Position numbers and translations under genes: made by a program. Below, one piece after another: positions 12,226 through 39,058 of a stretch of 53,595 bases of DNA (positions are counted from its first letter, which is position 1; the number at the start of each line of letters is the position of its first letter). This stretch comes from Saprospirales bacterium (lineage in GTDB: Bacteria; Bacteroidota; Bacteroidia; Chitinophagales; Saprospiraceae): positions 1 through 53,595 of the forward strand of contig PAAY01000025.1 in NCBI GenBank assembly GCA_002698985.1, in the 5' to 3' direction. Below the pieces are notes generated by a model. That model worked only from the letters and a program-made list of their open reading frames with translations. It ran no database searches and was not told the DNA's origin.

Positions 12226-12237
12226 TAAATATTTCTT

Positions 12238-12285
12238 AAACACGGCGTGGCCGTTAAAACTCCGCCAGAGGCGGAAAAACGCACA
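12238..12285 (+). repeat. Hairpin array D, upstream of the symporter gene
   Basis: TAAAC linker, hairpin ACGGC-GTG-GCCGT (12242-12254), linker TAAAAC, hairpin TCCGCC-AGA-GGCGGA (12261-12275), linker AAAAAC, then a cut-off GCAC half-unit, ending five bases before the ATG at 12291. It is a short, degenerate member of the GTTTA-linked palindrome family, in the same orientation as array A. Confidence 0.8.
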
Positions 12286-12290
12286 AGCTT

Positions 12291-14018
12291 ATGCATTGGA
12301 TTGACTGGGCAGTGATGCTGCTGGTTTTGATTGCGATCATCGCTTACGGAGTATGGAAAACGAGAACGATCAACACCTCGCAGGGCTACCTGCGTGGCGA
12401 CCGGGACCTGAGCTGGCTTACGGTAGGATTGTCGGTTATGGCCACTCAGGCCAGCGCCATCACCTTTTTGTCCACTCCCGGCCAGGGTTATGACGATGGC
12501 GTGCGTTTCGTACAGTTTTACTACGGCATGCCGCTGGCCATGATCATCATCTGCATTTTCATCCTGCCCATTTACTACCGCCTCAATGTTTATACGGCCT
12601 ACGAATACCTGGAGAACCGTTTCGACAAAAAGACCCGGACACTGGCGGCGGTGTTGTTCCTTTTTTCCCGAGGCATGGCGGCGGCTTTTACCATCTGTGC
12701 ACCGTCCATCATCCTCAACAACATCATGGGCTGGGACCTGTACACCACCATCGTCATCATTGGACTGGTCGTCACTTTTTACACGGCCATGGGTGGCACC
12801 AAAGCCGTCAGCTACACCCAGAAGCACCAGATGACCGTCATGCTGACGGGGCTTGTGCTGGCAGCCATCCTCATTGTCGTCAACCTGCCCGGGGAGGTCA
12901 GCCTCAGCGATGCGGTAGGTGTCGCTTCGCAAATGGGCAAAATGGAAGCTTTCGACATCGATTGGGACCTCTCCAACCGCTACAACGTGTGGTCGGGAAT
13001 GACGGCAGCGCTCTTCCTGTTCCTGTCTTATTTCGGAACCGACCAGTCGCAGGTGCAGCGTTACCTGACGGGGCGCTCCCTCCGGCAAAGCCGCATCGGG
13101 CTTTTGCTCAACGGATTCATCAAAATCCCCATGCAGTTTCTGGTCTTGTTCACCGGGGTGATGGTGTTCGTCTTTTACCTCTTCGTGCAGCCGCCCGTGC
13201 ATTTCAACAAATCGAACATGGCCCGGCTGGAGGCCTCACCGGAATGGAAAATGCAACTGGAAGAGGTGCAAAGGGAGTACGACGCCGTTTTCGAAGAAAA
13301 GGAAAAAACCACGCTGAACCTGATCGGTGCCCTTCGGCAAAAGGACCCAACGGCCATTGCCCAAAACAAAGCCGAACTTCAGAAATGGCAGGCCGAAGAC
13401 AAGCGGGTGCGGGCCCGGGTGGACTCCCTGCTGGAAGCCCAGGCAAAAGCCACCGGCAGTTCCGTAGAAACCAACGACCGGGACTACGTTTTCATCAGCT
13501 ACATCCTGGGGCATTTCCCGAGGGGCGTCGTCGGGTTGCTGTTTGCGGTGATCATCTGTGCGGCCATGTCGTCCACAGCCTCTGAGCTCACAGCCCTGTC
13601 CACCACCACCGTTGTGGATGTGTACAAGCGCTCATTCCGGCCGGGTGCTTCCGACCACCACTACCTCGTCGTGTCAAAAGGATTTACCGTGCTGTGGGGG
13701 CTGGTGGCCATCGCCTTTGCCACCATCGCCTCGCTGTTCGAAAACCTCATCCAGGCCGTCAACATCGTGGGCTCACTGCTGTACGGTGCCATTCTGGGCA
13801 TCTTCCTGGTGGCCTTTTTCTTCAAAAGGATCGGCGCCACCCCGGCCTTCATCGGCGGCCTGGTGGCCGAAGCCGTGGTGCTGGCTGTCTATTTCACCGA
13901 CAAAGCCGATGGCGTGGAAGACATCGGCTTTCTCTGGCTCAACCCCATCGGCTGTGCAGTGGTCATCGGCGTCAGCTGGCTGGTGCAAATGGGGATGGGG
14001 AGGAAGGAGGCCGTCTAA
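12291..14018 (+). CDS. Sodium:solute symporter (SSS family)
   Basis: 575 residues with about 13 hydrophobic helices in the LeuT-like SSS pattern: MHWIDWAVMLLVLIAIIAYG opens the protein, GLSVMATQASAITFLSTPGQGYDDG is the SSS core, and the conserved later segment GLLFAVIICAAMSSTASELTALSTT carries the Ser residues expected at the second sodium site. Between residues about 305 and 390 lies a long charged, coiled-coil-like soluble insert (EEVQREYDAVFEEKEK), seen in some Bacteroidota SSS proteins. It imports a small solute, perhaps a sugar or organic acid, with Na+; substrate not determinable. The start is directly preceded by hairpin array D, and a bidirectional terminator follows. Confidence 0.9.
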   Translation: MHWIDWAVMLLVLIAIIAYGVWKTRTINTSQGYLRGDRDLSWLTVGLSVMATQASAITFLSTPGQGYDDGVRFVQFYYGMPLAMIIICIFILPIYYRLNVYTAYEYLENRFDKKTRTLAAVLFLFSRGMAAAFTICAPSIILNNIMGWDLYTTIVIIGLVVTFYTAMGGTKAVSYTQKHQMTVMLTGLVLAAILIVVNLPGEVSLSDAVGVASQMGKMEAFDIDWDLSNRYNVWSGMTAALFLFLSYFGTDQSQVQRYLTGRSLRQSRIGLLLNGFIKIPMQFLVLFTGVMVFVFYLFVQPPVHFNKSNMARLEASPEWKMQLEEVQREYDAVFEEKEKTTLNLIGALRQKDPTAIAQNKAELQKWQAEDKRVRARVDSLLEAQAKATGSSVETNDRDYVFISYILGHFPRGVVGLLFAVIICAAMSSTASELTALSTTTVVDVYKRSFRPGASDHHYLVVSKGFTVLWGLVAIAFATIASLFENLIQAVNIVGSLLYGAILGIFLVAFFFKRIGATPAFIGGLVAEAVVLAVYFTDKADGVEDIGFLWLNPIGCAVVIGVSWLVQMGMGRKEAV

Positions 14019-22073: not shown

Positions 22074-23840
22074 ATGATGCGATTTTTTACCCTCTTGCTC
22101 TTTCTTTTCACTGTGCAACTTGCCGGAGCGCAGGTCTTTACCGAAGTGACCACTCAGCAAGGCATTACACACAGCTATCCCGGCAACGCCGGCGGGGGCG
22201 TCAGCTTTTGTGATTTCACCGGCGACGGCCTCGACGACCTTACCCTTGCCACCGGCGATGGGGAAACCATACAGTTCTACAAAAACAACAACGGAAGTTT
22301 CGAACTGCTGGCACCGCTGGTGCCCCACCAGGAGGAGGCGAAACACGTACTCTGGGTGGACTACGACAACGACGGCGACAAAGACCTCTATGTGGCCACC
22401 CACATCGGCGTGAACAGGTTGTACCGCAACACCGGCAACCTTACTTTCGAAGACGTGACCGAACAGGCCGGCCTGCCCATCGAGGAACACCGGACTTTCG
22501 GAGCCTGCTGGGGCGATTTTGACCGGGACGGCTGGCTCGACCTCTTCTTTACGGAACGCAAATGGCCGGCAAGCCAGTTCATCAATGAAAACCGCCTCTT
22601 CCGCAACAATGCCGACGGCACCTTTACGGAACTGACCGCCCAATGCGGCGCTGCGGACTACGGCAAAAAGCCTTTCTGCGCTTCTTTTCTGGATTACAAC
22701 AACGACAAGTGGCCAGATATCTACATCGCCAACGACAAGCTCACCATCAACGCACTGCTGCGCAACAACGGCGACGGAACCTTCACCGATGTGAGTGAGG
22801 AGACCAACGCTGACCTCGAAATGAACGCCATGGGCATTGCCATCGGCGATTACGACAACGACGGCTGGCAGGACATGTACATCTCCGACATCGACGATGG
22901 CAACGAACTGCTCCACAACCTGGGCCCCGACAGTAGCGGAACCGTCGTTTACGAAGAAACGGCTGCGGACGCCGGCGTGGGCTATTACGGTATTGCCTGG
23001 GGTGTCAACTTCTTCGATGCCGACAACGATGCCGACCTGGACCTCTATGTCTGCGGCATGCTTTCCGGCGCCGGCGCCATCTCCAACGTCTATTACGCCA
23101 ACAACGGCGACGGCACTTTCAGCCAGCCCTTTGCCGGTTTTGAGGGCGATACCACCAGCAGCTTCAACCAGGCCATTGGCGATTTCAACAACGATGGTTT
23201 TCCCGACATCATGGTCGTCAATGTGGAGCCCTTCGCTTCGCAACTGTGGCAGAACAGCGGCACCGCCAACAATTGGGTAAAATTTGACCTGCAAGGCGTG
23301 CTCAGCAACCGCGACGGCGTGGGAACCAAAATCGAAGTGTACACCAACGGCCAGTACCAGCAGCGCTACACCCATTGCGGCATCGCCTTCATGGGGCAGA
23401 ATTCCGGCACCGAGCTGGTGGGCCTCGGCAGCGCCACCCAGGCCGATTCGGTCATTGTCACCTGGCCCACCGGCCACGTTGACAAGCTCTTCAACCTTGC
23501 CGCAGGCGAGCGCATCCTCCTCGTTGAGGGCATGACCACCGGCGGCGACATCGCCGTGGACCCCGACGTGACCATCACCGTGGTGCCGGCCCGGGAAACC
23601 CTCGTGGAATACGACCTGAGCCTGTTTCCAAATCCCGCCGGGCAGTTCCTCAATCTGCAATACGATGGCCAGTTGCCTTTCACTCGCTTCGCAATCAGCA
23701 ACCTCCAGGGCCAACTGCTGAGCCACGGAGCCCTTCAGGGAAATGCCATCTCCGTCGGCCATTTACCCGAAGGGGCCTACATCCTGATATTGTGGAACCA
23801 ACTGGGGGAAAAGCTGGCATTGAAGTGGGTGAAGGAGTGA
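22074..23840 (+). CDS. FG-GAP/VCBS repeat protein with ASPIC/UnbV domain and T9SS tail
   Basis: 588 residues from ATG 22074 (a second ATG follows at once), with a signal peptide cut after GAQ. Seven DxDxDG-type calcium loops are readable: DFTGDGLDD, DYDNDGDKD, DFDRDGWLD, DYNNDKWPD, DYDNDGWQD, DADNDADLD and DFNNDGFPD, as in FG-GAP/VCBS propellers. Residues about 400-490 match the ASPIC/UnbV domain (NNWVKFDLQG, GTKIEVYTNGQ, VTWPTGHVDKL). The end (LFPNPAGQFLNLQYDGQ ... LPEGAYILIL ... LKWVKE) is a type IX secretion sorting domain, so it should be exported to the cell surface or medium. Role: probable carbohydrate-binding or adhesive surface protein (inference). The stop codon runs into 8-bp tandem repeats. 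Confidence 0.9.
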   Translation: MMRFFTLLLFLFTVQLAGAQVFTEVTTQQGITHSYPGNAGGGVSFCDFTGDGLDDLTLATGDGETIQFYKNNNGSFELLAPLVPHQEEAKHVLWVDYDNDGDKDLYVATHIGVNRLYRNTGNLTFEDVTEQAGLPIEEHRTFGACWGDFDRDGWLDLFFTERKWPASQFINENRLFRNNADGTFTELTAQCGAADYGKKPFCASFLDYNNDKWPDIYIANDKLTINALLRNNGDGTFTDVSEETNADLEMNAMGIAIGDYDNDGWQDMYISDIDDGNELLHNLGPDSSGTVVYEETAADAGVGYYGIAWGVNFFDADNDADLDLYVCGMLSGAGAISNVYYANNGDGTFSQPFAGFEGDTTSSFNQAIGDFNNDGFPDIMVVNVEPFASQLWQNSGTANNWVKFDLQGVLSNRDGVGTKIEVYTNGQYQQRYTHCGIAFMGQNSGTELVGLGSATQADSVIVTWPTGHVDKLFNLAAGERILLVEGMTTGGDIAVDPDVTITVVPARETLVEYDLSLFPNPAGQFLNLQYDGQLPFTRFAISNLQGQLLSHGALQGNAISVGHLPEGAYILILWNQLGEKLALKWVKE

Positions 23841-23874
23841 GGATTTGAGGATTTGAAGAACTGAGGAACTGAGG
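23839..23874 (+). repeat. 8-bp tandem repeat (GAGGATTT / GAGGAACT)
   Basis: GAGGATTT, GAGGATTT, GAAGAACT, GAGGAACT, GAGG head to tail. The FG-GAP gene's stop codon overlaps the first unit. The inverted counterpart lies at 27226-27256. Confidence 0.9.
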
Positions 23875-24005
23875 CTGCCTGCTAAACCCGGCGCAGCCGT
23901 TTAAACTTCACCGAAGGTGAACTAAACTCCGCCAAAGGCGGACTAAACCTGCCACAGGCAGATAACCCTGCCGCAGGCAGATAAACGCACCGCAGGTGCC
24001 TAAAC
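23873..24005 (+). repeat. Hairpin array A, upstream of the GH3 fusion gene
   Basis: Six palindromes joined by CTAAAC/ATAAAC linkers. Read outward from the gene on the minus strand they are GCACC-TGC-GGTGC, CTGCC-TGC-GGCAG, CTGCC-TGT-GGCAG, TCCGCC-TTT-GGCGGA, TTCACC-TTC-GGTGAA and AACGGC-TGC-GCCGGG, ending in GTTTAGCAGGCAGCC. The last linker, CTAAAC, directly precedes the ATG at 24006. Stem sequences differ but arms covary. Confidence 0.95.
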
Positions 24006-26975
24006 ATGCTAAAAAAAACACTTTCCTTTTTTGCGTTGATGGCCGGAATGATGACCATTTCGGCTTTCACCTTCAGGGCTGGTGAGCAGCCTGCTGCCGG
24101 CATGGAGGATGCCGTGCGGGAGCAGGTGTGGGTGGACAGCATCTTCAATGCCATGACCCCCGCCGAGCGCTATGGACAACTGGTGTGGGTGCGGGCAAAC
24201 ACCGACTGGAGCGACGAAAACCTGGATGCCGTGGCCCGTCAGATAGAGCAGCACCAGGTGGGAGGCTTGTGTTTTTTCAACCCTTCGGGCAAAGGCACGC
24301 CGGCAAAGCAGGTGGAGCTGACCAACCGCTTTCAGGCGCTCACCCGGCACGTGCCGCTTTTCGTCTCAATAGACGCCGAGTGGGGCATCGGCTGGCGATA
24401 CCGGGGGCAGGCCGTGGCATTCCCCCGCCAGATGATGCTGGGCGCCATTCAGGACAACACCCTCATTTACGAGATGGGCGCTGAAATTGCCCGGCACTGC
24501 CGGGCGATGGGCATCCACATCAACTTTGCGCCGGTGGCCGATGTGAACAACAATGCTGCAAATCCGGTCATCAACTACCGCTCTTTTGGGGAGGACCCGC
24601 AGCAGGTGGCCCTGAAGGCCTGGCATTACATGCGGGGTATGCAGGACAATGGCCTGATGGCCTGCGCCAAGCATTTCCCCGGCCACGGCGACACCGATGT
24701 GGACAGCCACCACGACCTGCCCGTCATCACCCACAGCCGCCAGCGCCTCGACAGCGTAGAGCTGATGCCCTTCAAAATGCTGACGGCACAGGGCGTAGCC
24801 AGCGTGATGGTGGCCCATCTTCAGGTGCCTGCCCTCGACGACAGGCCCAACACCCCGACCACGCTTTCCAGAAAGGTGGTTACCGGCATTTTGAAGGAGG
24901 AATGGCACTATCCAGGGCTCATCATGACGGATGCGCTGGAGATGCAGGGGGTGGCCAAACACCACGGCCCCGGTGAGGCGGCCGCCAAAGCCCTGGCTGC
25001 CGGCAACGACGTGCTGCTGCTGCCGGCTGATGTAGAGGCCGCCATTGCGACGATAAACAACTGGCTGGAAGCGGGAAAACTGGACAGCAACCAGGTGAAC
25101 AACAGCGTGAGAAAGGTGCTGCGCTGGAAATACCGGATGGGACTCACGCAGTTCAAACCCCTCCCGACGGAAGGGCTGAATGCGGTTCTCAACGATCCGA
25201 ACTCATTGGCCCTGCGCCGGAAGCTCATCCGCCACGCCATCACCCTGGTCAGAAATGACAAGGATATTTTGCCCTTCGGAGAAAAGGCCTGGAAGCTGGA
25301 GCTGGGGGCTGTGGCCATTGGCGCCGGCGCCGGCAATGCTTTTCAGCAGCGCCTGGAAAGCTACCACGATTTTGAGCTTTTTCAGACGGCCAAAGACCCG
25401 GGCCGGGCTGTACAGCGCAAGCTCATCCAACAGCTCAAAGACAAAGACGCCGTGGTGGTGAGCCTGCACGGCATGAGCCAGCGGGCCAGCCAGAATTACG
25501 GACTCAGTAAAAATGCCATTGCCTTCGTCAAAAACCTGAACGAGCAGGTGCCTGTGGTTTTGGTCGCCTTTGGCAATGCTTACTCGCTGCGCAATTTCGA
25601 CGAGCTGGACTGCGTGCTCACCACCTATGAAGACGGCGAGGACGTCGAAGACCTGGCAGCTCAGGCACTTTTCGGGGCCTTTGCCATTCAGGGCCGATTG
25701 CCCGTTACGGCTTCCGACAAGTGCCGCTCGGGGCAGGGCATCACCCTGCCTGCCTTGCAACGCCTGGGCTATGGCCTCCCGGAAGAGGCCGAGATGAGTT
25801 CCGCCAAATTGCTGAAGCTGGACACCCTGATTCAGTCGGCCATCGACAGCCAGGCTTTGCCGGGGGCGGTCATCCTCGTTGCCCGGCAGGGCAAAATCAT
25901 CTTCAACAAAGCCTGGGGCCGGCACACCTATGAGGCCAGCGCGCCCGCCACCCAGACAAGCGACATCTTCGACCTGGCCAGCATCACCAAAATCGCTGCG
26001 ACCACCGTGTCACTGATGCGCCTGCAAGACGAGGGGCGCTTTCATTTCCTTGATCCTGTGGAAAAATACCTTCAGGAGTACGAGGGCAGCAACAAGGCCG
26101 GCATTCCCCTGCTGAAAATGCTGACCCACCGGGCCCGCCTGACGACCTGGATCAAGTTTTACGAAGCTACACTCGATGAGAAGGGGTTCCCTTCAAAAGA
26201 ATACTACCGACCGGTGAAGAGCCGGGAGTTCCCCTGGCCTGTGGCCAAAGACCTCTGGCTGCGTGCCGATTATCCGGACAGCATCTGGCTGGCCATCCGT
26301 GAAAGCCCCCTGCTGGAAAAAGAGGAATACCGATACAGTGATCTGGCTTTTTACATCGCCGGCGAAATCGTGCATCGCCTCACTGGAAAACCGGTTGAAG
26401 AATACGCTGCTGAGCGCTTTTATGGGCCGCTGGGCATGCGACACACCACCTACCGGCCTTATGAGCGGTTTTCCCTCGGGCAGATCCCGCCGACAGAGGA
26501 GGATGCCTACTTCCGTCACCGCCGTATTCAGGGTTATGTGCACGACATGGGTGCTGCCATGCTCAATCAGGCCACCGGCCATGCTGGCCTCTTCTCCACC
26601 TCAGAAGACCTGGCCGTGCTCATACAGATGCTCCTCAATGGCGGCAGCTACGGTGGGCGCCAATACCTGGAACCGCAGACCATCGAGCTGTACGCCTCCC
26701 GTTGCGGCAGCTGCACCCGCCGTGGCATCGGCTTCGACATGCTGCAACTGAAGGAAGGCGCCCAGCCCAACCTCTCAACCCTGGCCAGCGAGAACACTTT
26801 TGGCCACCTGGGCTTCACCGGCACCGCCGCCTGGGCCGACCCCGACAACGAAATGGTCTTCATATTTCTGTCCAACCGGACTTATCCCTCCATGTTCAAC
26901 AGGAAGTTTTCTGAAATGAATGTACGTGGAAAGGCGATGGATGCCGTGTATGAGGCGATGGGACACCTTCGGTGA
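24006..26975 (+). CDS. GH3 beta-N-acetylhexosaminidase (NagZ-like) fused to a beta-lactamase-type serine hydrolase
   Basis: 989 residues with a signal peptide (LSFFALMAGMMTISAF). The N-terminal half is a NagZ-like glycoside hydrolase family 3 domain: KHFPGHGDTD at residues 222-231 with the catalytic His loop, and the nucleophile D309 in GLIMTDALEM. A GH3 C-terminal domain follows to about residue 590. From residue about 600 comes a class C beta-lactamase/DD-peptidase fold: S659-I-T-K662 is the SxxK motif, Y777-S-D779 sits at the YxN position (Asp for Asn) and FGHLGFTGT is the third motif. The pairing suggests periplasmic peptidoglycan turnover. Its last codons (His-Leu-Arg-stop) are the first palindrome of hairpin array B. 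Confidence 0.92.
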   Translation: MLKKTLSFFALMAGMMTISAFTFRAGEQPAAGMEDAVREQVWVDSIFNAMTPAERYGQLVWVRANTDWSDENLDAVARQIEQHQVGGLCFFNPSGKGTPAKQVELTNRFQALTRHVPLFVSIDAEWGIGWRYRGQAVAFPRQMMLGAIQDNTLIYEMGAEIARHCRAMGIHINFAPVADVNNNAANPVINYRSFGEDPQQVALKAWHYMRGMQDNGLMACAKHFPGHGDTDVDSHHDLPVITHSRQRLDSVELMPFKMLTAQGVASVMVAHLQVPALDDRPNTPTTLSRKVVTGILKEEWHYPGLIMTDALEMQGVAKHHGPGEAAAKALAAGNDVLLLPADVEAAIATINNWLEAGKLDSNQVNNSVRKVLRWKYRMGLTQFKPLPTEGLNAVLNDPNSLALRRKLIRHAITLVRNDKDILPFGEKAWKLELGAVAIGAGAGNAFQQRLESYHDFELFQTAKDPGRAVQRKLIQQLKDKDAVVVSLHGMSQRASQNYGLSKNAIAFVKNLNEQVPVVLVAFGNAYSLRNFDELDCVLTTYEDGEDVEDLAAQALFGAFAIQGRLPVTASDKCRSGQGITLPALQRLGYGLPEEAEMSSAKLLKLDTLIQSAIDSQALPGAVILVARQGKIIFNKAWGRHTYEASAPATQTSDIFDLASITKIAATTVSLMRLQDEGRFHFLDPVEKYLQEYEGSNKAGIPLLKMLTHRARLTTWIKFYEATLDEKGFPSKEYYRPVKSREFPWPVAKDLWLRADYPDSIWLAIRESPLLEKEEYRYSDLAFYIAGEIVHRLTGKPVEEYAAERFYGPLGMRHTTYRPYERFSLGQIPPTEEDAYFRHRRIQGYVHDMGAAMLNQATGHAGLFSTSEDLAVLIQMLLNGGSYGGRQYLEPQTIELYASRCGSCTRRGIGFDMLQLKEGAQPNLSTLASENTFGHLGFTGTAAWADPDNEMVFIFLSNRTYPSMFNRKFSEMNVRGKAMDAVYEAMGHLR

Positions 26976-27195
26976 AGTTTAAACGGCTGCGCCGGGGTTA
27001 GTCCGCCTTCGGTGGAGTTTAGTTCACCTGCGGTGAAGTTTAAACGACTTCGTCGGGTTTAGTCCGCCTGTCGGCGGAGTTTAGTTCACCTTTGGTGAAG
27101 TTTAAATGCCTGCGGCAGGTTTAGTCCGCCTTTGGCGGTGTTTAGTTCATCTTCGATGAAGTTTAAACGGCAGTGCCGGGTTTAGCTAGGCAGCC
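26963..27195 (+). repeat. Hairpin array B, starting inside the GH3 fusion gene's stop
   Basis: Eleven palindromes joined by GTTTA. In order: ACACC-TTC-GGTG (contains the gene's stop), CGGC-TGC-GCCG, then a repeating triplet of types TCCGCC/GGCGGA, TTCACC/GGTGAA and AACGGC or ATGCC: TCCGCC-TTC-GGTGGA, TTCACC-TGC-GGTGAA, CGAC-TTC-GTCG, TCCGCC-TGTC-GGCGGA, TTCACC-TTT-GGTGAA, TGCC-TGC-GGCA, TCCGCC-TTT-GGCGGT, TTCATC-TTC-GATGAA, CGGC-AGT-GCCG, tail GGCAGCC. Both arms change together in CGAC/GTCG and TTCATC/GATGAA. Confidence 0.95.
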
Positions 27196-27206
27196 TCATT
27201 TCCTCT

Positions 27207-27256
27207 CCCGACGGATGTCGGGATCAGTTCCTCGGTTCTTCGATTCCTCATTCCTC
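27207..27256. repeat. CCCGAC hairpin plus inverted 8-bp repeats
   Basis: CCCGAC-GGAT-GTCGGG (27207-27222), then ATC and 8-mers AGTTCCTC, GGTTCTTC, GATTCCTC, ATTCCTC. This is the reverse-complement form of the GAGGAACT repeats at 23839-23874; a similar hairpin plus GATCAGTTCCTC lies at 39115-39142. It may terminate the convergent beta-barrel gene operon or the GH3 gene. Confidence 0.8.
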
Positions 27257-27264
27257 AAAAAAAA

Positions 27265-36027: not shown

Positions 36028-38922
36028 ATGAGCAGAACACAATTCTTCGACCAGTTTTCCAAAAGACATATCGGCCCTAACGAAGCTGAACTTTCACAAA
36101 TGCTGAAAGTAATCGGCGTGGAATCACTTGACCAACTGATTGATGAAACGGTTCCTGAACCCATCCGGATGCAGGGCGAATTGCACTTGCCGGAAGCCCA
36201 GACCGAGTTTGAATACCTCAAGGAACTGAAAGAGGTGGCCGTGATGAACAAGCTCTTCAAGAGCTACATCGGCATGGGCTATTACGGAACCATTACCCCT
36301 TCTGTCATTTTGCGGAACATCTTTCAGAACCCCGGCTGGTACACCCAGTACACTCCCTACCAGGCAGAAATTTCGCAGGGGCGTTTGGAAGCCTTGTTGA
36401 ACTTCCAGACCATGGTCAGTGACCTGACCGGCCTACCAATCGCCAATGCTTCCTTGCTGGACGAGGCCACTGCAGCCGGCGAAGCCATGACCATGTTCTA
36501 CGGGGTAAAAAACAAACGGTCCAAAGGCGATCCTGCCAACATCTTTCTGGTTGATGAAAATGTGTTCGATCAAACCATCGAAGTGCTGCATACCAGGGCT
36601 GTACCTCACGGAATAGAAGTGGTGGTTGGCGACTGGAAGTCATGGGACCTCAACGACGAAAAGGTCTTTGGTGTGCTGGTACAGTACCCGGGCAAAGATG
36701 GACTGGTTGAAGATTTTTCAGGTCTGGTTCAAAAAGCAAAAGAGAAAGGGGTATTCGTAACAGTTGCTGCCGACATTTTGTCCTTGGCCGTTTTGACCCC
36801 TCCGGGTGAATGGGGCGCTGATTGCGTAGTAGGCAATACCCAGCGTTTTGGTGTGCCAATGGGCTACGGGGGGCCGCATGCCGCCTATTTTGCGACGAAA
36901 GAAGATTTCAAGCGCGTAATACCCGGACGAATCATTGGGGTCTCAGTTGATGCGCAGGGCAAACCGGCCTACCGCATGGCCCTGCAGACGCGAGAACAGC
37001 ACATCCGCAGGGAAAAGGCCACCAGTAACATCTGCACGGCCCAGGCACTGTTGGCCATCATGGCGGGTATGTATGCCGCCTGGCACGGGCCTCGAGGCAT
37101 CAGGGCGATTGCTGATCGCGTGCATGGATTTACCCAGATCCTGCACAAAAACCTGAAGGCACTTGGCTACAATGTCCGCCACGATCAGTTCTTTGATACC
37201 CTGTGCATCGAAGTGGAAGACAAGGTGATCGATGTGCTGCACCATCTGGCTACTTTCAACGAAATCAACCTGTTCTACAGTGACAATACCGTTCAGGTGA
37301 GCCTGGACGAAACCGTTTTGGAGGAAGACGTGGATCTGTTGATCAGCATCTTCAGCCAGGCAAAAGGTGTGGATGCCAAAGCTGACTTCACCGAAGTGGA
37401 AGGCTATAATTTTCCCGAAGGGCTGATCAGAAAAAGTGAATACCTGACGCATCCGGTTTTCAACGATTATCACACGGAAACCAAAATGATGCGCTACATC
37501 AAGCGGCTGGAAAACCGGGACCTTTCACTCATGCACAGCATGATATCTTTGGGAAGTTGCACCATGAAACTAAACGCAGCCTCCGAGTTGATTCCGGTGT
37601 CGTGGTCTTTGTTCAGCGATATCCATCCTTTCGCACCGGAAGATCAGGTGCAGGGTTACAAAGAGATTTTCCAGGATCTGGAGCGCTACCTCTGTGAGAT
37701 AACCGGTTTCGCAGCGTGCTCGCTGCAACCTAATTCCGGAGCCCAGGGGGAATACACCGGTCTGATGGTTATCAGGGCTTACCACGAGTCCCGGAACGAA
37801 GCCCATCGCAACATTGCGTTGATTCCTGCGTCGGCCCATGGAACTAATCCGGCCAGTGCCAGCATGGCCGGGATGAAGGTGGTTGTCGTTGCCTGTGACG
37901 ATCACGGAAACATCGACACCGATGATCTAAAGGCCAAGGCTGAGCAGTACAAAGATTCACTGGCCTGCCTGATGATCACTTATCCTTCCACCCACGGGGT
38001 GTTTGAGCCGGGTGTAAAAGAGCTGTGCAAGGTGATTCATGACAATGGCGGGTTGGTGTACATGGACGGTGCAAACATGAACGCACAGGTAGGACTGACC
38101 AGCCCCGGAATCATTGGTGCTGATGTGTGCCACCTGAACCTGCACAAGACATTTGCAATTCCCCATGGCGGTGGAGGTCCGGGAATGGGGCCCATTTGCG
38201 TAAACGAAAAGCTGGCACCCTTCCTTCCCGGGCACCCGTTGGTGAGAACGGGCGGTGAGAAAGCCATTACCGCCGTTTCTGCGGCTCCTTACGGCAGTGC
38301 CAGTATCCTGCTGATCTCCTATGCTTACATTCGCATGCTCGGCCCAAAAGGCCTGACCGACGCTACGAGGTACGCCATTCTGAATGCCAATTACATCAAA
38401 GCAAGGCTTGAAAAGGAGTACAAGGTGCTTTATACCGGCGTCAAAGGTCGTGCGGCGCATGAGCTGATCATTGACCTCCGCCCCTTCAAGGAATACTGCT
38501 CGGCCGAAGATGTTGCCAAGCGCCTGATGGATTACGGATTCCATGCGCCAACCCTTTCATTCCCCGTGGCCGGCACGCTGATGATCGAACCGACGGAAAG
38601 CGAGAGCATGGACGAACTGGATCGCTTTTGCGACGCCATGCTCCAGATTAGAAAGGAAATCGATGAAATTGCCAGCGGACAGGTAAGTGCTGAAGACAGT
38701 GTGCTTCATCATGCTCCCCACACCGCAGCATTGCTGACTGCTGATACCTGGGATAGGAGTTACAGCCGTGAGAAAGCCGCCTGGCCCTTGCCCTATTTGC
38801 ACGAAGGGTATAAATTCTGGCCTTTTGTTGCCAGAGTTGACAATGCATACGGAGACCGGAACCTGGTTTGCGTTTGTCCACCCATCGAATCGTACATGGA
38901 AGAAGCGGTTCAGGAAGCGTGA
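36028..38922 (+). CDS. gcvP: Glycine dehydrogenase (decarboxylating), P-protein
   Basis: 964 residues, the full one-chain form (both the alpha and beta halves that are separate in some bacteria). The N-terminal half begins [15 protein letters not shown] and has [10 protein letters not shown] and [20 protein letters not shown]; the C-terminal half has [32 protein letters not shown] and the PLP-binding lysine K707 in [19 protein letters not shown]. It decarboxylates glycine and passes the aminomethyl group to lipoyl-GcvH; GcvT and GcvH are not in the window. A structured leader lies upstream and hairpin array C starts right after its stop codon. Confidence 0.97.
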
Positions 38923-39058
38923 CCTGGCACCTGAGGTGCGTTTAATGCGCCTGGTGGCGCAGTTTAGTTCACCTTCGGTGAAGTTTAGGCATCTTCGGTG
39001 CGTTTAGTCCGCCTTCGGCGGAGTTTAAACGGCTTCGCCGGGTTTAGTCCGCGGCGTT
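38923..39058 (+). repeat. Hairpin array C, downstream of gcvP
   Basis: Six palindromes with GTTTA linkers: GCACC-TGA-GGTGC, TGCGCC-TGGT-GGCGCA, TTCACC-TTC-GGTGAA, GCATC-TTC-GGTGC, TCCGCC-TTC-GGCGGA and AACGGC-TTC-GCCGGG, then GTTTAGTCCGCGGCG. The first begins five bases after the gcvP stop codon. The order resembles arrays A and B read outward from their genes. Confidence 0.95.

Follow-up and report, generated by a model that had tools for sequence, protein, structure and literature searches.

GTTTA-linked arrays of covarying hairpins at gene edges in a Saprospiraceae-related bacterium and its sister genome

Introduction

Why should strings of small palindromes, whose stems differ from unit to unit with both arms changing together, be joined by one constant linker of five bases, and do the hairpins that they can form matter as RNA or as DNA? 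The question is raised by a stretch of 53,595 nt (the window, by which I mean that whole stretch) from an uncultured Saprospiraceae-related bacterium, whose 4.83 Mb draft genome is called G000 below and whose sister genome is called G003. Strong covariation is commonly read as evidence that an RNA is functional. In this family, met in two sister genomes among those searched, it comes with neither a clear wobble excess nor a clear strand preference, so the arrays lend themselves naturally to asking whether copying at the level of DNA is able to maintain paired hairpins. An earlier note, made from the letters of the window, had proposed "selection or a copying mechanism" acting on structure, a reasonable proposal.

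The arrays in the window

The window arrays are real and far beyond chance: linker pairs at a spacing of 19 number 7 against 0.05 expected, and none of 100 shuffles reached 7 or more. Of the four loci that the earlier note listed as GTTTA-joined hairpins, B, C and D stand (Table 1), whereas the one placed at 12238-12285 proved degenerate, its two hairpins being preceded by GTTTT and the gene-side one, described as a GCACC type, being TCCGCC. The order then proposed, from GCACC or ACACC at the gene to AACGGC at the far end, is roughly seen in B, C and D but not across the genome, whose arrays vary greatly in stem sequence, and in array C the hairpin order on stem identity alone is not significant (p 0.19). 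Array C consists of 3.6 copies of a 61-bp tandem (TRF), each block holding three different hairpins of TTCACC, AACGGC and TCCGCC types, with two-sided differences between the block copies. In those relatives of the 24006-26975 ORF that were examined, the sequence past the last aligned residue, which is the site of the first hairpin of array C, differs.

Table 1. Arrays and adjoining repeats, in window coordinates
Feature	Position	Strand	Description
Array A	12237-12280	-	Degenerate; 2 hairpins, GTTTT linkers; upstream of 12291-14018 ORF; weak covariance-model match
Octamer tandem	23838-23874	-	TGAGGAAC type (CTCAGTTC on GTTTA strand); 3' side of array B
Array B	23883-24005	-	6 hairpin units; abuts ATG of 24006-26975 ORF; GTTTA strand antisense to ORF; orthologous array in G003
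First hairpin, array C	26963-26976	+	Overlaps last codons and TGA stop of 24006-26975 ORF
Array C	26963-27184	+	11 hairpins including the first; GTTTA linkers
Octamer/heptamer repeats	27227-27257	+	GTTCCTCG / ATTCCTC; 3' side of array C
Array D	38927-39046	+	6 hairpins including the first; begins 4 bases past stop of 36028-38922 ORF (glycine cleavage P-protein); orthologous locus L092 in G003

A genome-wide family in two sister genomes

The arrays are not confined to these loci. A one-unit covariance model (26 positions; 34 rows, one with an edited linker) gave 157 matches in G000 at E<=10, of which 150 were listed, and parsing of 31 stretches and the window yielded 41 arrays with 261 hairpins (2-22 per array), besides 17 arrays with 70 hairpins in G003, a few parsed units being doubtful (such as the last unit of L085 and units of L078). 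Among the 150 listed matches, 148 fall inside a parsed array or at most 30 nt from one and the remaining two within about 60 nt, so that no listed match is isolated; conversely, 3 of the 41 arrays have no listed match and were found through parsing, which means that the model undercounts. Two-linker units were absent from 100 kb of G000 untouched by listed matches. A GTTTTTG-linked set also occurs in G000, with no further copy found by one pattern.

Who else carries the arrays? With model R1 at E<=0.001, and the own genome included, 2 of 40 relatives were positive (2 of 14 in the genus), as were 2 of 150 genomes in the family and, in the phylum sample, 1 of 395, this one being the own genome; since per-genome scoring in these surveys covered 150, 51 or 19 candidates, arrays with a divergent linker would have escaped them. 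When GTDB species genomes, from which own-genome records were perhaps excluded, were scanned with an exact pattern, one Saprospiraceae MAG was hit, in 5 stretches; this MAG, JALWSS01, is very probably G003. The protein of the 24006-26975 ORF is 91% identical in G003 and 57-66% identical in the best matches of the other 12 same-genus genomes, where the DNA beside its gene holds no array by eye (contig ends truncate one of the upstream and one of the downstream stretches). Hairpin runs were also sought de novo in 687 kb of 8 same-genus genomes, by a scan which as a control kept 28 of 33 runs at G000 array loci, and no GTTTA-type array turned up; the idea of the same design with another linker was dropped, the one G001 run that passed the constant-linker filter being a different palindrome set. 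Viral carriage is likewise unsupported, one pattern having given 0 matches in a viral collection. Neither Rfam, searched with the whole window (gathering score) and with array C (E<=1), nor the open-licence literature searched holds a match or a description, in agreement with the earlier note that knew of no named family, and the arrays look like an undescribed family of repetitive DNA.

Anatomy and covariation of the hairpin unit

Read on the GTTTA strand, a unit consists of GTTTA, one base, the first arm of a 4-6 bp stem, a loop of 3-4 nt and the other arm, after which the next GTTTA follows. The base right after the linker is usually a purine (G 177, A 99, T 17 and C 5 in 298 units), linkers in runs are spaced 15-24 nt apart (19 in 187 of 318 pairs, 21 in 45, 22 in 42 and 17 in 24), and the loop is mostly closed by C-G and begins with T in 287 of the 298 units. 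The stems are hypervariable, with 82 distinct parsed stems across both genomes, 46 of them confined to one locus, and the combination of fixed linker and covarying stems first noticed in the window holds genome-wide: the 298 units were picked by linker spacing alone, and of their 1255 inner pairs 1200 are Watson-Crick, compared with 65% when the arms are shuffled. Because arrays have units in common, these pairs do not count as independent events. The outermost stem pair is A:G in 53 units. Arms covary both within and between loci, with 37 cells of A1 changed on both sides against 6.9 in shuffles (a value reached by 0 of 500) and 5 of 6 pairs with two-sided change (5 being reached by 76 of 500 shuffles). 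Neither outcome that the earlier note had named as refuting it, arrays confined to the window or no supported covariation beyond inverted duplication, came about. In a stem-order test within 23 arrays, uncorrected, L077 (p 0.002), L063 (p 0.003) and L080 (p 0.022) stood out, the other 20 lying above 0.05.

Among the non-Watson-Crick inner pairs (G:T 19, A:C 15, other 21) there is not clearly an excess of G:T over A:C, nor does the ratio (7 vs 9 and 9 vs 4 by array class) shift with the presumed transcribed strand, although such pairs are few and the wobble test of DNA against RNA is thereby weak. Where distinct stems of the same array differ at one inner pair (n=30), 15 differences are two-sided, 14 of these transition-type, and 15 are one-sided, with a non-Watson-Crick member that is G:T in 10, A:C in 4 and another mismatch in 1; single-mutant intermediates thus exist, and their slight lean to G:T speaks against a purely DNA reading. 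As for the strand, energies from DNA parameters favour TAAAC in 24 of the 199 distinct units. GNA-type triloops are known as specially stable DNA hairpins, and their use on the TAAAC strand was considered and set aside on these energies, which favoured the other strand.

Placement, polarity and strand

Genes around the arrays were taken from a home-made codon-usage caller, which placed genes on both sides of 56 of the 58 arrays. As the earlier note had it for the window, arrays read outward from an adjacent gene: in 49 of 56 it is the GTTTA 5' end that lies closer to a gene (median distance 20 vs 155 nt), namely in 37 of 40 for G000 (p 2e-8) and in 12 of 16 for G003 (p 0.08, not significant alone). 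There are seven exceptions, and at L065 a short open frame beside the array escaped the gene caller. On the 5' side the array meets a gene end in 28 cases and a gene start in the other 28; after a stop codon 22 of 28 arrays start at most 20 nt from the stop, and at gene starts 7 of 28 lie within 20 nt and the others up to 730. This outward polarity from both kinds of gene edge should constrain any mechanism. The flanking genes are co-directional in 39 cases, convergent in 13 and divergent in 4, and in the co-directional gaps the GTTTA strand is the sense strand 15 times and the antisense strand 24 times, so neither GTTTA nor TAAAC is clearly preferred as the transcribed strand. At L060, L062, L071 and L076 two arrays in one gap face inward. 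The flanks are polar as well, with 49 CTC(A/G)(A/G)TTC-like octamers in the 150-nt 3' flanks (23 of 58 arrays) and 1 in the 5' flanks, the reverse orientation occurring once in each. A replication-strand bias was rejected as not significant: 26 of the 41 G000 arrays and 12 of the 17 G003 arrays have positive GC skew on their GTTTA strand.

Turnover between the sister species

Ten of 15 G003 array stretches align with G000 array loci, in 20 pieces that are 77-90% identical (17 of them at least 82%). Orthologous arrays have a mean of 0.49 of their parsed stems in common (11 comparisons), against 0.19 for 686 other pairs, and range from no common stems (L097 vs L060) to all (L098 vs L058). Array B and its counterpart keep the last three hairpins, while on the gene side array B reads GCACC and CTGCC and its G003 counterpart has ACACC or CTGCC types, and array C has by eye no counterpart in G003 on the 3' side of the 24006-26975 gene. 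Linkers persist at orthologous loci where about half of the stems are common. Between the two genomes 65% of the fourfold sites in one neighbouring gene match (293/452), at which level about 12% of 5-mers would be expected to survive intact if they were unconstrained, a plausibility argument rather than a measured rate because the linkers were found by sequence. Within G003, blocks are common to different loci together with 16 or about 59 nt of 3' flank (L093/L097, 96 nt, 96%; L096/L099, 144 nt, 87%).

What keeps the hairpins paired?

The reading that I favour, tentatively and at somewhat less than an even chance, is that the arrays are a DNA-level, REP-like family of tagged palindromes, spread by duplication and by copying from locus to locus, with hairpins kept through a strand-reading activity, fold-back repair or both. 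It builds on the anatomy, covariation, polarity, distribution and sister-species turnover observed above. The tag is GTTTA with the usual purine, and at its 3' side stands a hairpin of 4-6 bp whose T-first loop is mostly closed by C-G; strings mostly begin near a gene edge and extend outward, tandem duplication of hairpin blocks would lengthen or shorten them, and copying would spread them, some blocks transferring between loci with part of the 3' flank. Perfect hairpins may be kept because an enzyme that reads tag, foot and loop on an extruded single strand needs them, and/or because arms are mended by fold-back copying, a repair that template switching could supply. That DNA rather than RNA would be read is suggested by a directional unit that has no clear transcribed-strand preference and no clear wobble excess.

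No enzyme reading GTTTA hairpins was identified in this analysis, and a RAYT as the driver finds no support, since the Y1_Tnp genes checked are not flanked by GTTTA arrays and 9 of the 12 array-less genomes of the same genus have more Y1_Tnp matches than G000. The one match in G000 (G000:C58) has no GTTTA array in the 6.0 kb around it and, by eye, another palindrome family beside it; the stronger of two in G003 sits, by eye, among a different palindrome. G003:C158 has no GTTTA array in the surrounding 5.9 kb, and G003:C142, flanked by other hairpins, has its nearest at a distance of about 4.2 kb. As the two assemblies are drafts, they may lack a further RAYT.

At the RNA level, arrays would be transcribed as untranslated regions whose hairpins set apart unpaired GUUUA (or UAAAC) sites to which an RNA-binding protein attaches, or they would protect or terminate transcripts, a rival that I consider unlikely. 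Compared with shuffled versions, two of three units have clearly better RNA folds (z -3.3 and -2.9, with -1.1 for the third), and the three form UUC triloops rather than the C(UUCG)G tetraloops once predicted; post-stop arrays start close to the stop, few arrays lie in divergent gaps, and the one-sided stem changes lean to G:T. The lack of a clear preference for either strand as sense, the similar numbers of G:T and A:C and the absence of an Rfam match for the window or array C weigh on the other side. RbpB is reportedly linked to pentanucleotide repeats, and a platform for an RNA-binding protein by this analogy was abandoned, since excerpts of the RbpB literature contain neither the expected pentanucleotide repeats nor a repeat motif of the GTTTA kind.

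Rather improbable, too, is a mutational by-product with no function, in which replication stalled at hairpins would lead to tandem duplication, fold-back template switching would repair the arms and the five-base linkers would be realignment points. Template switching is described, in excerpts of PMC8794818, as a route to make and mend hairpins, some arrays have a higher-order repeat structure (TRF; order test for L077, L063 and L080), and other simple tandem repeats adjoin arrays. By itself, however, the by-product explains neither a linker that persists at 65% fourfold identity nor the gene-edge polarity, and loop orientation is retained (the inverted type, purine...A, appears in 2 of 298 units) even though switching between hairpin arms can invert the spacer (PMC8604942, in excerpt).

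More speculative, and quite doubtful, is a system that writes palindromes, whose single-stranded DNA activity would recognise GTTTA at the foot of a hairpin and, at the edges of genes, add perfect hairpins with a new sequence or rewrite them; were it true, arrays would be directional, stems renewed between sister species and the tag retained. Finally, a passive DNA platform binding a nucleoid or topology protein (REPs are described in excerpts of PMC6006769 as binding gyrase or IHF) is very unlikely, for although arrays sit at gene edges and seldom in divergent gaps, and a fixed tag and loop with freely varying stems would fit a protein that reads structure, no match occurs in 12 of the 14 genomes of the genus, G003 has by eye no array 3' of the 24006-26975 ORF and no protein was identified.

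Comparison with known systems

The favoured reading, a DNA-level family of tagged palindromes, can be placed among described repeats, the papers cited here being represented by excerpts. Like CRISPR arrays, the strings alternate a constant with a variable element, but CRISPR repeats are 24-48 bp of constant sequence between non-repetitive spacers, and here, on repeat anatomy alone, the constant part is 5 nt and the variable part palindromic. Intrinsic terminators are a hairpin followed by a T run on the transcribed strand, whereas GTTTA follows these hairpins and arrays occur in both orientations. Volvox organelle palindromic repeats (PMC2670323) also fill intergenic DNA with diverse palindromes whose short loop has few sequences; they are longer, often nested, found in organelle DNA and constant in the loop, where here the linker is constant. 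TAACTGA heptamers (PMC4679880) are likewise lineage-patchy intergenic tandems near gene starts, present also in five Bacteroidetes, but have a constant unit and no hairpin array.

With the REPs of RAYT/TnpAREP (PMC6006769) and with REPINs (PMC3116915) the units have in common a 5' guide-like tag at the hairpin foot, and a hairpin with such a tag is what enzymes of the TnpAREP and IS200/IS605 kinds recognise in single-stranded DNA (PMC6006769). Unlike in RAYT-associated REPs, no Y1_Tnp gene checked in the two drafts is flanked by a GTTTA repeat. REPINs are inverted pairs, whereas GTTTA units are direct repeats. REP-like dispersal would lead one to expect solo units, and among the listed matches there are 0. 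GTAG- and CGTC-tagged REPs (PMC3733652) are closest in being short extragenic hairpins with an unpaired tag at the foot and a short loop, often restricted to a species and mostly between co-directional or convergent genes. They differ in tag (here GTTTA), in stem (6-13 bp for GTAG or 8-9 bp for CGTC, with a family consensus, against 4-6 bp and 82 stems here, GTAG-1 elements with 5 bp stems also existing; PMC3733652) and in arrangement, since every match listed here lies in or next to a string of equally oriented units with gene-edge polarity. What GTTTA units do possess is the REP-like format itself, many copies of a short extragenic hairpin that carries a 5' tag at its base, and the family may work like a REP.

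Repeats beside the arrays and in other genomes

The GH3/beta-lactamase-domain gene in the window takes its final codons and stop from array C, one of the strings of GTTTA-linked hairpins, and a single gap holds adjoining short tandem repeats (GAGTAGA, TCATCCC, GGTGTAG and TCAACAATC). Within the same genome, a stop codon is followed by hairpins with GTTTTTG-like linkers, a block that is partially duplicated and for which one pattern search returned no further occurrence. Among the other genomes compared, G006 carries ACGTTTACTAAAC...GTTTAGTAAACGT palindromes in four tandem sets, with linkers of 18-25 nt that differ by set, G001 a run in which AACC-type linkers connect perfect palindromes that are long and differ from one another, and G012 an 18-bp palindromic tandem, GAAATCTTCGAGATTTCG.

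Positions of the repeats and palindromes
Feature	Stretch	Contig	Positions
Gene end within array C	window	PAAY01000025.1	26960-26975
Short tandem repeats	window	PAAY01000025.1	11971-12225
GTTTTTG-linked hairpins	L168	G000:C47	3430-3900
ACGTTTACTAAAC...GTTTAGTAAACGT sets	L140	G006:C2	13592-18000
AACC-linked palindromes	L153	G001:C56	4864-5022
GAAATCTTCGAGATTTCG tandem	L164	G012:C290	10789-10900
Block between two arrays	L028	G003	1240-1790

Repeated GGCTCGTCACGAGC / GCGGCCTCTGGCCGC blocks surround the sole match in the window's genome (L131/L175, G000:C58) to Y1_Tnp, the transposase domain sought as a possible RAYT-type driver of the arrays, and a block of this kind separates two arrays at the array-B locus of the sister genome, G003. 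That genome also holds (L127, G003:C142) one lone palindrome resembling the G006 type, and the CCGTTCC-TAC-GGAACGG hairpins on the flanks of the Y1_Tnp gene there are perhaps a separate REP family.
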